A model generated the notes under the pieces. That model did no database searches. It was not told the origin of the DNA and was given only the letters and a program-made list of their open reading frames with translations. Position numbers and translations under genes: made by a program. From Parabacteroides sp. (lineage in GTDB: Bacteria; Bacteroidota; Bacteroidia; Bacteroidales; Tannerellaceae): 35,040 nucleotides of DNA. Numbering within the stretch: the stretch's first letter is position 1; the number at the start of each line of letters is the position of its first letter. This document shows positions 7,623 to 22,338 of this stretch, piece after piece. The stretch covers positions 1 to 35,040 of the forward strand of contig JAGBDR010000046.1 of assembly GCA_017937385.1 (NCBI GenBank), in the 5' to 3' direction.

Positions 7623-10283
7623 TCAAAATTTAAACGTATAAGAGAGAGACGGGACAAAAAGGAACAACAACGTCTGTTCCAATACGACCTCCTTCCCATC
7701 TGTCAGTTGATAAATCCGGGGACGGACGGTAAACGGATTCGGCTTAAAATAGGCGTTACACAAACTCAGGTTCCAGATTCCCATACGTCCGTTCCTTTTG
7801 TAACGATAGAAATTCGCACCTAAATCCAAACGATGGTAAGGCGATAGCTGGTAATTATTCCGGGAACTGGCACTCAAACCACTCGTCCATTCCCCCAGCT
7901 CACCCGTCTCGCCATCGGTCAAATCCGGAGACGGCCGGTAATTCACATCCTGTAAAGTGATATGGTTACCGGACTTATACATCCAAGCGGCCGTCAGCTC
8001 CACCTTCTTGGATAACCGATAAGAGGCAACAATATCGATCTTATGTCGGTTATCATAGCGGGAAGGGAAACGTACTCCTTTATTGACCGTCCCGTCCGGG
8101 AACCAGCGGTCGGACCACGAGAGCGTATAGCCGATCCAACCGTTGAAACGCCCGGCTTTCTTCTGCACCATCAACTCCATCCCGTAGGAACGGCCCTTGC
8201 CTACTCCCACCCGGTCTTCCCAACCGGTAAAAGCCGGCAAGACCGGACCGTTATCCTTATATTCCACCAAGTTGTTCATCCGTTTGTAATATCCCTCCGC
8301 CGAGAAATCCAATCCGTGGAAGTACCAAGCCAGGCCACCCGTTACCTGATGGGCATTCATCGGACGGATATTTTCCGTCACCGGAACCCAAATGTCTGTC
8401 GGCTGGCTGATATAACTATTGGACAACAGGTGGATATATTGGTTCATCTTCGTGTAGGAGACTTTCACCGATATCCTCCGCCCCAGCAAATAACGGGCAG
8501 AAAAACGGGGCTGAAAAGATTGGTAGGTCGTCCCTTGCACATGGAAAAGCGTGAAACGCAGGCCGGTATTCACCCGAAAGCGGTCGGTGAGCGACATTTC
8601 GTCTTCCGCATAGGCCGAAAGCTCATGCCCGTGAATCAGGGAATGGGCAAAGACAGTGGTATTCGCTTTCATAACGACCGAATCTTCATACCAGGAACTC
8701 ATATTACTCTGTTCGGGGCGAAAAATATGAAACAGATAATCCCCGCCCATCCGGATCCGGTGGTCCACATTCGGGCGGTAGTCGAAAGAGGCCCGCAAGC
8801 TGATATCTTCCATCGCCGAACGATAATGCCCTTCCTGGAAATAGAGCTGCCCGCCCAAATCCCGGAAAGAGACAAACGTATTCTGTTTCTGAATAATATG
8901 GGAACGATACCGGGTATAACCACCCGTAAAAGTAGCAAACAGCTTCTTATTGATCAGGTAGTTCCAACCGGCAGACCCGATCAGATTCCCCCAACGCCAA
9001 CAGAAATCCCGATCTTCTCCGTGCATGTTTTTCGAATCTTCCCCGTTCCGATAACTATCGCTCCCCATATAAAAGCTAAGATACGCACGGCTCCGGTCCG
9101 TAAAAGAATAATCGACCTTGGCATTCATGTCGTAGAAATGGTATCCGCCTTTGACTTTCGTATCGGATTTCTTGTTGAAAGCGGTCACAAGCGGCCAGGT
9201 AATCAATTCCATCCAAGTACGGCGCACAGAGACATTGAACGACGACCGGTCCTTGATGATCGGTCCTTCCAGATTGGCACGCGCCGCCAACAGACCGACC
9301 GAAACATTCCCGTGATACTCTTTCCGGTTTCCCTCGTTCATACGCACATCTATAACGGAAGAAAGCCTCCCGCCGTATTCCGCCGGAAAACTTCCCTTAT
9401 AAAACGTGGCACTCTTCACCGCATCCGGGTTGAAAGCCGAGAAAAAGCCCAAGACATGATCCGTATGATAAATCGGATTCCCGTCCAACAGAAACAAGTT
9501 GTCGTCGCCATCTCCTCCCCGTACGAACAAGCCGCTCATTCCTTCCGTCCCGACCGTCGTACCCGGCAGGCGTTGCAACGTTTTGACAACATCCGCCTCA
9601 CCTAACAAGGCCGGCAAAGACTTCACCCGGCTCGCCGAAATATCCGACACCCCGATACGGCTTTTCAAGACTTCCGATCGGGGAGAAATTCCTTGAATCA
9701 CGACTTCGCCCAACGTTCCGGCCGGTTTCAGAGAGAGGTCGATCATCGTGTCGCGCGTCAACTCGAAAGTAAGCGTCCGACGTTCATACCCGACATAGGA
9801 AGAGGCCAACAGGACTTTACCCGGCGGCAGCGTCATACTATAAAAACCATAATTGTTGGAAACAGAACCCTTTTTGGAAACCTGATCTATGACAGTCGCC
9901 GAGATCAGGCTCTCATAAGAAGCCGAATCGCGCACGAAGCCGCTGATCGTATATAACTTGGGTTTTCGTTTCAAGATCACATATTGCCCTGTTATCCGAT
10001 AGACGATCGACAAAGGTTCGAATAACCGCTTGAGGCAATCGGAGAGCGATTCGTCATGGGCTTTCAACGATACTTTCCGGTAATCTTTCAACATCGACGA
10101 TTCGTATGAAAAAAACAGGCCGGTCTGTTTTTCTATTTCGAGCAAGATCTCTTGCAAAGGAACCTGCCGCATATCCAAGGTCACGGTCGGAACCGACTCA
10201 GCCGGAAGCAGCGAGGATTCTCTGGCATAAATCAGCGGGCAAATCAAATAAATTCCTATGACAAACAGGTAAATACGATACAT
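7623..10283 (-). CDS. TonB-dependent receptor with STN domain (proximal copy)
   Basis: An 886-residue outer-membrane receptor with the same architecture as the distal copy: signal peptide (about 1-20), STN domain (about 33-108), carboxypeptidase-regulatory-like domain (about 112-195), plug (about 225-320, with LFVRGGDGDDNLFLLDG) and a barrel ending SYTFKF. It follows fecR by 19 nt and precedes its DUF4249 partner by 4 nt, so fecR, receptor and lipoprotein form one operon. The STN domain and neighbouring FecR/ECF sigma genes support a transducer role: ligand binding would relay to FecR and release the sigma factor. The cargo is unknown; siderophore, metal complex or peptide are all compatible. 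The barrel segment with NNLVEYKD and SRYDNRHKIDIV is shared with the distal copy, showing they are paralogues. Confidence 0.9.
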   Translation of the reverse strand: MYRIYLFVIGIYLICPLIYARESSLLPAESVPTVTLDMRQVPLQEILLEIEKQTGLFFSYESSMLKDYRKVSLKAHDESLSDCLKRLFEPLSIVYRITGQYVILKRKPKLYTISGFVRDSASYESLISATVIDQVSKKGSVSNNYGFYSMTLPPGKVLLASSYVGYERRTLTFELTRDTMIDLSLKPAGTLGEVVIQGISPRSEVLKSRIGVSDISASRVKSLPALLGEADVVKTLQRLPGTTVGTEGMSGLFVRGGDGDDNLFLLDGNPIYHTDHVLGFFSAFNPDAVKSATFYKGSFPAEYGGRLSSVIDVRMNEGNRKEYHGNVSVGLLAARANLEGPIIKDRSSFNVSVRRTWMELITWPLVTAFNKKSDTKVKGGYHFYDMNAKVDYSFTDRSRAYLSFYMGSDSYRNGEDSKNMHGEDRDFCWRWGNLIGSAGWNYLINKKLFATFTGGYTRYRSHIIQKQNTFVSFRDLGGQLYFQEGHYRSAMEDISLRASFDYRPNVDHRIRMGGDYLFHIFRPEQSNMSSWYEDSVVMKANTTVFAHSLIHGHELSAYAEDEMSLTDRFRVNTGLRFTLFHVQGTTYQSFQPRFSARYLLGRRISVKVSYTKMNQYIHLLSNSYISQPTDIWVPVTENIRPMNAHQVTGGLAWYFHGLDFSAEGYYKRMNNLVEYKDNGPVLPAFTGWEDRVGVGKGRSYGMELMVQKKAGRFNGWIGYTLSWSDRWFPDGTVNKGVRFPSRYDNRHKIDIVASYRLSKKVELTAAWMYKSGNHITLQDVNYRPSPDLTDGETGELGEWTSGLSASSRNNYQLSPYHRLDLGANFYRYKRNGRMGIWNLSLCNAYFKPNPFTVRPRIYQLTDGKEVVLEQTLLFLFVPSLSYTFKF

Positions 10284-11141: not shown

Positions 11142-11176
11142 CAATTGACAATTGATAATTGACAATGGACAATGGC
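11142..11176. repeat. Degenerate 7-bp tandem repeat upstream of fecR
   Basis: Five consecutive heptamers on the + strand: CAATTGA, CAATTGA, TAATTGA, CAATGGA, CAATGGC. The tract ends 5 nt before the fecR start codon and fills most of the 60-nt gap after the barrel gene. CAATGG at its edge can also pair with CCATTG at 11188-11193. Similar tracts lie at 22227-22338, 25619-25653 and 30773-30807. Confidence 0.75.
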
Positions 11177-12011: not shown

Positions 12012-12527
12012 TCAAGAAAAAAAGAAACAATAAATCCGTATAGCGGTTTCCCGCAAAGCTTTCAACGCTTTTCCTATTTGATTTTCAACCGTCTTGACCG
12101 AAATGTTCAATTCTTCGGCAATCTCCTGATATTTCAATCCGTCCCGCTTGGAAAGCAGAAATATCTTCTTCCGCTCGGGTGGAAGCTCATCGATAGCCGC
12201 CCAAAGACGCGCATCGCGTTCCGCCTGGTACATCTGTTCTTCTTCCGACAGATCTTCCAAGTCGGCAACAAACTCCGAAACCGGTTCGGTATCGGCCAAT
12301 CGGGCAACAAGGGTGAGGGAACGGTTTTTGACAGCTTGGTACAGATAGGATTTAAGATTGGCAATCGTCACGTCGTGGCAACTCTTGTCCCACACGTCGG
12401 CAAAGGCTTGCTGCACGACATCTTCGGCATCTTCCGTCTTTTCCGTAAAACGAAGTGCGAACAAGCAGAGGGGCTTGTACAATTCCTTAAAGGTATGTTC
12501 AAAATCTTTCGCCGATATTGTCGCCAT
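12012..12527 (-). CDS. ECF RNA polymerase sigma factor (FecI-like)
   Basis: A 171-residue ECF sigma factor of the Bacteroidetes expansion. The sigma-2 region spans about 8-75 (FKELYKPLCLFALRFT, then DAEDVVQQAFADVW), and the sigma-4 region about 112-160, with the helix-turn-helix YQEIAEELNISVKTVENQI. There is no sigma-3 region, as expected for ECF. ATG 12527 gives the canonical N-terminus; the in-frame extension to 12575 would translate part of the palindromic repeat array and is rejected. It lies downstream of trpS with a 134-nt gap filled by that array. The expected targets are the barrel gene, fecR and receptor cassettes downstream. Control is expected by FecR at 10303-11136. Confidence 0.9.
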   Translation of the reverse strand: MATISAKDFEHTFKELYKPLCLFALRFTEKTEDAEDVVQQAFADVWDKSCHDVTIANLKSYLYQAVKNRSLTLVARLADTEPVSEFVADLEDLSEEEQMYQAERDARLWAAIDELPPERKKIFLLSKRDGLKYQEIAEELNISVKTVENQIGKALKALRETAIRIYCFFFS

Positions 12528-12546
12528 ACGTTTGCCTTTGTCTTTT

Positions 12547-12652
12547 GTTCCCTTACCGGGGAACGTGAGTTCCATGCCCAGGGAACAGGAATTCCATGCC
12601 CAGGGAACTATAGTTTCATGCCTATGAAACCACAGTTTCCCTGCCGGGGCAC
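12547..12652. repeat. Five-unit array of 18-bp palindromes with exact 22-bp period
   Basis: Units begin at 12547, 12569, 12591, 12613 and 12635, each 18 bp and separated by 4-nt spacers (gtga, agga, tata, caca). Units 1 and 4 are clean dyads: GTTCCCTTACCGGGGAAC and GTTTCATGCCTATGAAAC. Units 2 and 3 share TTCCATGCCCAGGGAAC; unit 5 is diverged. The arms covary between units (GTTCC/GGAAC versus GTTTC/GAAAC), which suggests selection for pairing. The array fills the gap between trpS and the ECF sigma gene. It is not CRISPR: the spacers are only 4 nt. Confidence 0.85.
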
Positions 12653-12661
12653 AAAACAGGG

Positions 12662-13714
12662 TTATCCTCTGAATCCGATAATCTCGCGTACTTCACGCAG
12701 CGTCTTTGCGGCGCTCTCGCTTGCCTTTTCAGCACCGATACGAGCCACTTTCGCCAGATAGTCTTCGTCGGAACGGATGTCCAAGATGCGTTCGCGGATC
12801 GGAGCACAGAATTTATTGATATCTTCGGCCAATTGCTTTTTCAAATCTCCGTAACGGATCTCGCAATTGTTATATTTTTCATTGAAGAAATCGAACGTAT
12901 CTTTGGTCGATACGATTTCCATCATTGTAAACAAATTGGCAATCGGTTCGGGCTTCACACTGTTCGGCTGCGTAGGACCGGCATCCGTCACGGCCTTCAT
13001 CACCTTCTTCTTGATTGTCTTTTCGTCGTCGATCAGATAGATGGCGTTTCCTTCGCTCTTGCCCATCTTGCCGGAGCCGTCCAAGCCGGGCACTTTGATC
13101 GCCTTGCTGGAATAATAGAACGAGGCGGGTTCCGGGAAACATTCAACCCCGTAAGTCGAGTTGAAACGGCGGGCAAAACGGCGGGCCATTTCCATGTTCT
13201 GTTCCTGGTCTTTCCCGACCGGCACCTTCACCGCCTTGTGGATGATGATATCGGCCGCCATCAGGGTCGGATAAGTCAACAAACCGGCGCTTACGCTATG
13301 CTTGTTGTTTTCATTGAAGATTTCCTTTTCCACATCGCCTTCCGTGGTGTTGACACGGTCAATGTGCAATTGCTGGCGTGCCTTATCTTTAAAAGAAGTA
13401 GTACGCATCAACTCGCCGATCCCGGCATTCATATTCAGATACAGATACAGTTCAGGGATCTCGCGCACATCGCTCTGCAGATAGATGGTCGCTTTTTCCG
13501 GATCGACACCACAGGCCAGATATTCAGCCAAAATCGTCTTCACACTGTTACGGATGTTATCGGGATGCGGATGTGTAGTCAACGAGTGCCAGTCTGCAAT
13601 AAAGAAAAAGCAATTATACTCATTTTGCATTTGCAAAAATCCTTTTACTGCTCCGAAGTAATTCCCCAGATGCAAATTACCCGTTGGGCGAATGCCGCTT
13701 ACTACTATTTCCAT
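12662..13714 (-). CDS. trpS: Tryptophanyl-tRNA synthetase
   Basis: A 350-residue class I synthetase that charges tRNA-Trp with tryptophan in the cytosol. The HIGH-type signature is PTGNLHLGN at residues 10-18, and the KMSKS loop is KMGKS at 216-220, a common TrpRS variant. The Rossmann core and C-terminal helical region are intact and the length is normal. ATG 13714 gives the usual MEIVVSGIRPTG start; the 12-residue upstream extension is unsupported. A good promoter lies just upstream (13748-13779). The downstream neighbour on the same strand is the ECF sigma gene, separated by the palindromic array, so read-through into the sigma locus is possible but the two are functionally unrelated. Confidence 0.96.
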   Translation of the reverse strand: MEIVVSGIRPTGNLHLGNYFGAVKGFLQMQNEYNCFFFIADWHSLTTHPHPDNIRNSVKTILAEYLACGVDPEKATIYLQSDVREIPELYLYLNMNAGIGELMRTTSFKDKARQQLHIDRVNTTEGDVEKEIFNENNKHSVSAGLLTYPTLMAADIIIHKAVKVPVGKDQEQNMEMARRFARRFNSTYGVECFPEPASFYYSSKAIKVPGLDGSGKMGKSEGNAIYLIDDEKTIKKKVMKAVTDAGPTQPNSVKPEPIANLFTMMEIVSTKDTFDFFNEKYNNCEIRYGDLKKQLAEDINKFCAPIRERILDIRSDEDYLAKVARIGAEKASESAAKTLREVREIIGFRG

Positions 13715-13747
13715 TTTCTTTCTTAACTTATTAATATCAAATGGCGA

Positions 13748-13779
13748 CAAAGATAATAATTATTTTGACAGATTCCGAA
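13748..13779 (-). promoter_or_regulatory. Promoter of trpS
   Basis: On the minus strand the -7 box is TATCTTTG (13755-13748), a perfect TAnnTTTG. Exactly 20 bp upstream is TTCG (13779-13776), three of four matches to the -33 TTTG. The predicted RNA start is near 13741, leaving a leader of about 27 nt. Confidence 0.65.
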
Positions 13780-15970: not shown

Positions 15971-16044
15971 TAGCGAGACCCGGGATTGAACCGGGGACCT
16001 CATGATTATGAATCATGCGCTCTAACCAGCTGAGCTATCTCGCC
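15971..16044 (-). tRNA. tRNA-Met (anticodon CAT, elongator type likely)
   Basis: A 74-nt cloverleaf with no encoded CCA. The acceptor stem GGCGAGA pairs with TCTCGCT (G1-U72), with discriminator A. The D arm is GCTC/GAGC; the anticodon stem CATGA/TCATG carries a loop TTCATAA with anticodon CAT; the T arm is CCCGG/CCGGG with loop TTCAATC. CAT tRNAs may be initiator Met, elongator Met or lysidine-modified Ile. The G1-U72 pair and the anticodon stem lacking three GC pairs argue against an initiator. Absence of C4-G69 and C5-G68 argues against the Ile type recognised by TilS. Elongator Met is therefore the best call. Confidence 0.9.
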
Positions 16045-22226: not shown

Positions 22227-22338
22227 TAATAGACAATGGACAATTGACAATTGACAATTCAAGTCAAAAGCCAATTGCCCATCGTTTCGTTTTATGTCTC
22301 TCTTAATTGCCAATTGTCAATTATCAATTGCCAATCGG
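22227..22338. repeat. Opposed pair of 7-bp repeat tracts between rpsB and tsf
   Basis: Left tract 22227-22261: TAATAGA, CAATGGA, CAATTGA, CAATTGA, CAATTCA. Right tract 22304-22338: TAATTGC, CAATTGT, CAATTAT, CAATTGC, CAATCGG, i.e. the reverse-complement orientation. With about 42 nt between them, the mRNA could fold into an imperfect stem of about 30 bp. The pair fills the gap between the rpsB stop and the tsf start. Confidence 0.75.

Follow-up and report, generated by a model that had tools for sequence, protein, structure and literature searches.

Five palindromic 22-bp units between trpS and a FecI-type sigma gene look like one instance of a scattered array family in Parabacteroides and some relatives

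Plasmid iterons and LexA/DinR-type boxes are operator arrays of dimeric proteins, in which inverted half-sites recur at a fixed spacing of about two helical turns. The Gram-positive LexA box, GAAC-N4-GTTC, resembles the linker-centred dyad GRAAC-N4-GTTYC of the arrays that we describe here. REP and BIME elements are short palindromes that are dispersed, intergenic and often found several together; in the excerpts of PMC3733652 on which we draw, REP elements carry a GTAG or CGTC tetranucleotide at one end. The closest printed element is BrickBuilt, a MITE of Porphyromonas gingivalis made of intergenic 23-nt tandem repeats whose number varies between strains. The portion of its description used here (PMC4596501) places the repeats between a leader and a tail, gives full copies IS5-like terminal inverted repeats, counts up to 22.8 copies, and reports the element from P. 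gingivalis and P. gulae. The same excerpts note that tandem repeats of 22 nt had been described before in P. gingivalis W83, their exact locations not being given; these could be identical with our arrays or something else.

Each of these systems is matched in part. Like REP/BIME elements, the arrays are short dispersed palindromes of intergenic DNA, but they keep a near-strict 22-bp period and their arm pair 4-15 does not covary. With BrickBuilt they share the bacterial order, an intergenic position, tandem repeats of similar length and a varying unit number; they differ in being made of 3 to 7 palindromic 22-bp units, and appear to be set apart by the repeat length and architecture that the excerpted account gives for BrickBuilt. 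By eye, the flanks of the arrays have no long leader or tail in common, and G002 and G001 arrays share short ends. Operator arrays of dimeric proteins have the same inverted half-sites at a fixed spacing of about two helical turns, whereas here tens of loci are occupied without a common neighbour family, and no LexA domain was found in the 12 array-rich genomes tested. We found no description of these 22-bp dyad arrays in the literature searched. A part of the family may already be known outside that literature, since 22-nt repeats of P. gingivalis are mentioned without sequence in the excerpts of PMC4596501.

The window, that is the whole stretch of 35,040 nucleotides that was analysed, is placed in Parabacteroides by its trpS orthologues, the nearest being that of Parabacteroides massiliensis (96% identity). 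The features that concern us are the following.

12012..12527, minus strand: ECF sigma factor of FecI type (Pfam Sigma70_r2 and Sigma70_r4; translation)
12528..12661, minus strand: trpS-sigma spacer, 134 bp, 106 bp of it array
12547..12564, no strand: unit 1, GTTCCCTTACCGGGGAAC
12569..12586, no strand: unit 2, GTTCCATGCCCAGGGAAC
12591..12608, no strand: unit 3, ATTCCATGCCCAGGGAAC, a single arm base off
12613..12630, no strand: unit 4, GTTTCATGCCTATGAAAC
12635..12652, no strand: unit 5, GTTTCCCTGCCGGGGCAC, right arm degenerate
12662..13750, minus strand: trpS, tryptophanyl-tRNA synthetase, upstream of the sigma gene (mechanical ORF limits; Pfam tRNA-synt_1b and orthologues)

The preliminary description had reported five palindromes of 18 bp, spaced by exactly 22 bp from start to start, between 12547 and 12652, and this is confirmed, with starts at 12547, 12569, 12591, 12613 and 12635 and 4-nt linkers. 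Units 3 (ATTCC...) and 5 (...GGGGCAC), however, are imperfect. The array does fill the leader of the sigma gene, as had been claimed, taking up 106 of the 134 bp; it begins 9 bp past the trpS stop and stops 19 bp short of the likely sigma start, the ATG at 12527 (MATISAKDF...). The mechanical ORF of the sigma gene extends to 12575, into units 1 and 2. Beyond the sigma gene lie a FecR gene and TonB-receptor genes (Pfam). Across the window, the motif is matched 12 times when one mismatch at most is allowed (shuffled sequence: 5.75 +/- 2.07), and 5 of these matches fall at exact 22-bp steps. The window also carries tandem 7-bp repeats of the CAATTGA / AATTGAC / AATTGCC type (11142-11173, 22228-22259 and 22305-22335), and a similar array, inverted, fills the trpS-sigma spacer of locus L052. 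A tRNA gene lies at 15971-16044 on the minus strand, and a tRNA is the sole match of an Rfam scan of the window at the gathering cut-off.

Among the three readings offered for the array, that of a dispersed repeat family is clearly supported, as the array is one copy among many in the genome. In the 3.73 Mb of the source genome, the two-unit motif with up to three mismatches has 85 forward and 81 reverse matches, and the reversed-pattern control has none; as the motif is almost its own reverse complement, the two sets mostly coincide. Besides the window, 40 regions and two contig ends were examined, 43 stretches in all, and these yielded 32 arrays above the score, with 3 to 7 units each. The family is genome-wide and mostly intergenic. 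Naive gene calls put 88 classified arrays into 53 co-directional, 17 convergent and 18 divergent spacers, and in the source genome 17 of 27 distances from stop codon to array are at most 28 bp, two being overlaps. Some arrays of the source genome are made of near-identical units (six identical ones and a seventh with one base changed on contig C88, six identical ones on each of C112 and C120), and decayed half-sites are frequent, with A at position 1 in 24%. Contigs C112 (12-139) and C120 (14-141) both terminate inside arrays of the identical unit, and their ends are perhaps the two sides of one array within which the assembly broke.

The geometry of the units was counted from exact half-sites within 16 bp in five genomes, namely P. 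bouchesdurhonensis (G002), G225, G001, the source genome (G000) and P. massiliensis (G014). In that order, a linker of exactly 4 bp (GRAAC-Nk-GTTYC) is seen in 83/85, 73/73, 60/64, 31/40 and 15/22 cases, and an inner distance of exactly 8 bp (GTTYC-Nk-GRAAC) in 100/100, 66/75, 64/76, 39/45 and 12/19. Successive units at most 70 bp apart are separated by multiples of 22 bp in 85/85, 59/64, 50/51, 62/63 and 18/22.

Array loci are partly inherited. Loci that hold array stretches in the source genome were recognised in 8 of 20 fetched stretches of P. acidifaciens and 8 of 20 of P. massiliensis, where one shared pair (L196/L352) has no array above the score and another (L219/L291) aligns on a single flank. 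Across 7 orthologous pairs with 23 units, agreement is 129/138 in the half-site core, 139/184 at positions 6-13 and 57/92 at positions 1, 4, 15 and 18; the flanks of orthologous pairs agree at 9383/11447. Of a larger set of 19 pairs, 17 have an array that scores high enough and 16 have units that can be compared; once gapped units and the five with over 3 arm mismatches are removed, this set gives 378/460 for the arms and 251/368 for the inner bases. The arms taken as a whole thus equal the flanks there, so that only the half-site core stands above them. An alignment bias is possible in these comparisons because arms attract arms, and a shift by one unit is conceivable. Preservation thus concerns the spacings and the half-site letters TT-C/G-AA, and the inner and linker bases drift. 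The number of units varies between orthologous arrays. In G002, units within an array are mostly dissimilar, with arms exact in all listed places (best 100 of 188). By eye, in about 19 of 23 arrays of this genome (loci L234-L255) one end but not the other bears an additional half-site, GTTCCATTTT or AAAATGGAAC, and the inner linkers show a tendency to switch between AAGT and AAAT/AAAC; several G001 arrays have AGTTTCACCT or AGGTGAAAC at one end, also by eye.

The preliminary description had taken the joint changes of the arms to be compensatory. Units with GTTCC/GGAAC and with GTTTC/GAAAC do exist, but compensation found no support in the covariation test. Among 107 distinct units of the source genome, positions 4 and 15 form a Watson-Crick pair in 55, against 55.1 expected (z 0.0); the same pair gives z -0.4 in P. 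acidifaciens, -5.5 in G002 and +1.6 in G225. Since this pair is at chance, compensatory changes in the arms are not supported, and the value below chance in G002 comes from the polarity of its units. None of the four genomes therefore shows, at pair 4-15, a stem-loop kept by compensatory change as in REP elements. Of the four, only the source genome has covarying inner pairs (7-12, z 5.5; 6-13, z 2.1).

How far does the family extend? With up to 2 mismatches, at least one match is found in 32 of the 38 Parabacteroides genomes, the control giving 0-2 per genome; 18 of the 38 are array-rich, with 17-107 matches, and 14 others have 1-5, near the control. In an order-wide sample, at most one mismatch being allowed, 9 of 393 genomes match, including G096 (68 matches) and G225 (93), which belong to other families; the single match of G078 is probably chance. 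In a phylum sample, 4 of 296 match: the source genome, G096, G752, which has five matches and belongs to a different order, and G587, whose single match is again probably chance. The layout GTTYC-N8-GRAAC-N4 thus has a patchy wider occurrence, in further families of Bacteroidales and in a single genome from a different order. Among the genomes behind the trpS loci, 22 of 46 match with up to 2 mismatches, and the control finds 0-1 except in G459 (10) and G451 (5), which we read as candidate arrays with other arms. In this set, arrays of 22-bp period with altered arms occur in Porphyromonas levii and in Parabacteroides sp. Marseille-P3160, and in P. massiliensis both arms of many units are changed together to TTTTC/GAAAA (55 matches with up to 3 mismatches, control 3).

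An arm-blind scan for tandem repeats in 80 trpS loci (785 kb) found 17 repeats at lag 22, of which 8 have a palindromic consensus (symmetry of at least 0.7, where 4% would be expected at random); two of these 8 are of the GTTTC type itself (L052, L063), and L074 and L083 at 3654 are single hairpins or simple repeats. At other lags the palindromic share is 6/25 (lag 21), 2/7 (lag 23) and 4/43 (remaining lags from 15 to 40). The arms found in this way are lineage-specific, as with GTTGATAATTATCAAC in L083. Tandem repeats of 22-23 bp with very different, mostly palindromic arms were noticed in other Bacteroidales (L083:4822, L129:1811, L066:4660, L119:4148, L116:4417, L057:919). Among the matches listed for G002, the first 450 kb of contig C2, 12% of its length, contain 8 of the 23 arrays fetched. 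A phage origin was rejected, as only 14 of 2.9 million viral contigs match, with one two-unit match each. A CRISPR array was rejected as well: such an array has repeats of more than 20 nt separated by unique spacers that are longer still, whereas the linkers here are 4 bp and the inner distances 8 bp, and no Cas family is among the 25 neighbour families listed out of 186.

The trpS-sigma spacer itself is different in the relatives. No GTTYC array stands at this place in 23 stretches that follow an orthologous trpS, those of P. massiliensis and P. acidifaciens included (each up to 230 bases long, and not in every case followed by a sigma gene). Arrays of this type occur in 3 of 80 trpS loci, each outside the trpS-sigma spacer. 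Absence of the array from orthologous loci, together with a lack of other copies, was to have reduced it to a local duplication; the orthologous spacer indeed has no array, but the genome is rich in other copies. P. acidifaciens has a terminator-like hairpin with a 12-pair stem in the spacer (terminator scan), and P. massiliensis a long hairpin and a T run seen by eye, of which the terminator scan did not report any. In P. acidifaciens, P. massiliensis, P. distasonis (L063) and P. goldsteinii (L062), the promoter-like block TTACTTTG precedes the sigma gene, and the window is without this block. The Bacteroides -7 promoter consensus is TAnnTTTG; the block is one base off it, and the strict pattern was found in 0 of 6 spacers tested. 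At L052, L058, L059, L060 and L065, unrelated inverted short repeats occupy the spacer. Since its contents differ from species to species, elements come and go at this place.

In the window, between 12300 and 12900, no intrinsic terminator (GC-rich stem followed by a T run) was found, against a shuffle mean of 0.9. Because the array occupies the place of the terminator-like hairpin and promoter-like block of the relatives, we infer that transcription probably reaches the sigma gene by reading through from trpS. Replacement of terminators was rejected as a general rule, since arrays also lie in the convergent and divergent spacers counted above.

What, then, are these arrays? We lean, tentatively and without holding it to be probable, to a row of double-stranded sites for a putative dimeric DNA-binding protein, two helical turns apart. 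Each unit would consist of two inverted 5-bp half-sites, GTTYC...GRAAC, 8 bp apart, with a 4-bp linker between units, so that the dyads, recurring every 22 bp, or about two helical turns, would face the same side of the helix. The putative protein, which might be chromosome-organising or a broadly acting regulator, would load side by side and cooperatively along this face, and copies of the array would be gained and lost in spacers. The fixed half-sites, the alternation of 4 and 8 bp and the length of about two turns per unit fit the cooperative loading of a dimeric protein. Of the multi-site operator proposed in the preliminary description, only the general form survives, with sites at many unrelated loci; an operator specific to the sigma gene is not supported, given the lack of an array in the 23 stretches after orthologous trpS genes. 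Several observations speak against a protein row. The patchy distribution in the order and phylum samples suits a mobile repeat at least equally; the polarity of G002 units goes beyond what a simple symmetric site explains; the end sequence that some G002 and G001 arrays share might mark where a mobile element terminates; many half-sites of the source genome are decayed; inner pair 7-12 covaries in that genome; and the transcribed strand of the trpS-sigma spacer folds better than shuffles.

Candidates for the protein and for its regulon were sought and rejected. Among 113 flanking proteins of G001, G002 and G225, no Pfam family has more than 2 members, so that no neighbour family common to them would point to a regulon; the test took 113 of the 118 listed proteins, leaving aside the last 5 and the 56 of the source genome. 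LexA was rejected too: its domain PF01726 is present in 0 of 12 array-rich genomes and in 2 of 3 array-poor ones, one of them below the cut-off. A bolder form of the protein reading would have Bacteroidales keep helically phased dyad arrays with a period of 21-23 bp in tens of spacers per genome, with half-site letters shifting in concert by lineage, as docking rows of a putative fast-evolving chromosome-organising or silencing protein; this we regard as rather doubtful.

Nearly as likely as the protein row is a selfish or neutral repeat of REP/BIME-like kind, because a repeat independent of RAYT explains the patchiness and the shared ends of G002 and G001 arrays at least equally. Tandem palindromes would here spread without RAYT, change length by whole units and have no host function, and their arms would seem conserved as the copies are young or homogenised. 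The patchy occurrence across families, the relatives' trpS-sigma spacer without an array, the near-identical units on C88, C112 and C120, the concerted shift of arm letters in P. massiliensis, the differing unit numbers of orthologous arrays and the ends GTTCCATTTT/AAAATGGAAC and AGTTTCACCT/AGGTGAAAC all argue for it. Against it stand the mostly unlike units within G002 arrays, whose arms are exact in the best 100 of 188 places, a linker length that is stricter than the inner length in G225 and G001, and the fact that no target duplications were noticed by eye. It is also without a transposase candidate. No Y1 (IS200/RAYT) transposase was found in the source genome, which is 90.5% complete; Y1_Tnp occurs in 8 of 38 Parabacteroides genomes (4 of 18 array-rich and 4 of 20 array-poor), is absent from 14 of the 18 array-rich ones and is not tied to array number. 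The tetranucleotides GTAG or CGTC lie within 6 nt of a unit edge in 1/109 units of the source genome (the window array excluded), 0/79 in G001, 0/110 in G002 and 11/78 in G225; for the Parabacteroides units pooled, this is 1/298. Mobilisation by a RAYT, as with REPs, was thus rejected: the source genome is without Y1_Tnp, Parabacteroides arrays are without the tags, and array number shows no tie.

It is less likely, and on the whole improbable, that the array works through RNA hairpins in a row, which would serve 3' of trpS as terminator, attenuator or mRNA stabiliser and set read-through into the sigma gene. The preliminary description had raised such hairpins, and the array's own five units and their spacer do fold well in prediction: the units reach -2.6 to -8.7 kcal/mol on the plus strand, and the transcribed strand of the spacer -54.8 kcal/mol (z -4.13, equalled by 0 of 200 shuffles), against z -2.39 for the opposite strand (equalled by 3 of 200). 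The short distances from stop codons to arrays and the covarying inner pair 7-12 of the source genome point the same way. However, arm pair 4-15 is without covariation in four genomes and most stems are weak: predicted single-unit stems have medians of -1.9 to -2.8 kcal/mol in four genomes on both strands, and 57-67% of units are weaker than -3 kcal/mol on the plus strand. The lack of a T-run terminator in 12300-12900 and the 18 of 88 arrays in divergent spacers also count against hairpins, as does the polarity of G002 units, which is independent of gene direction; of the 13 arrays with a polarity in co-directional spacers of that genome, 5 have the G-U side on the transcribed strand, so that there is no tie to transcription. 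A local operator for trpS or the sigma gene alone, to which the leader of a FecI-type gene with adjoining fecR and TonB-receptor genes would be suited, or a chance duplication, is most improbable, given tens of arrays elsewhere in the genome, none at the trpS-sigma place of relatives, and arrays beside unrelated genes in three related genomes.

The trpS-sigma array therefore looks like an instance of a pattern scattered through the genome and some relatives, rather than a feature of the trpS/sigma pair. Such arrays may break short-read assemblies, and two contigs of the source genome terminate inside them. If the arrays are indeed docking rows for a protein, they would amount to an undescribed genome-wide binding system in gut Bacteroidales; if they are selfish, they would be a family of palindromic repeats that spreads independently of the transposase to which REP mobility is ascribed. 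On either reading, arrays can replace promoters and terminators, so that operons are rewired, as seems to have happened between trpS and the sigma gene.
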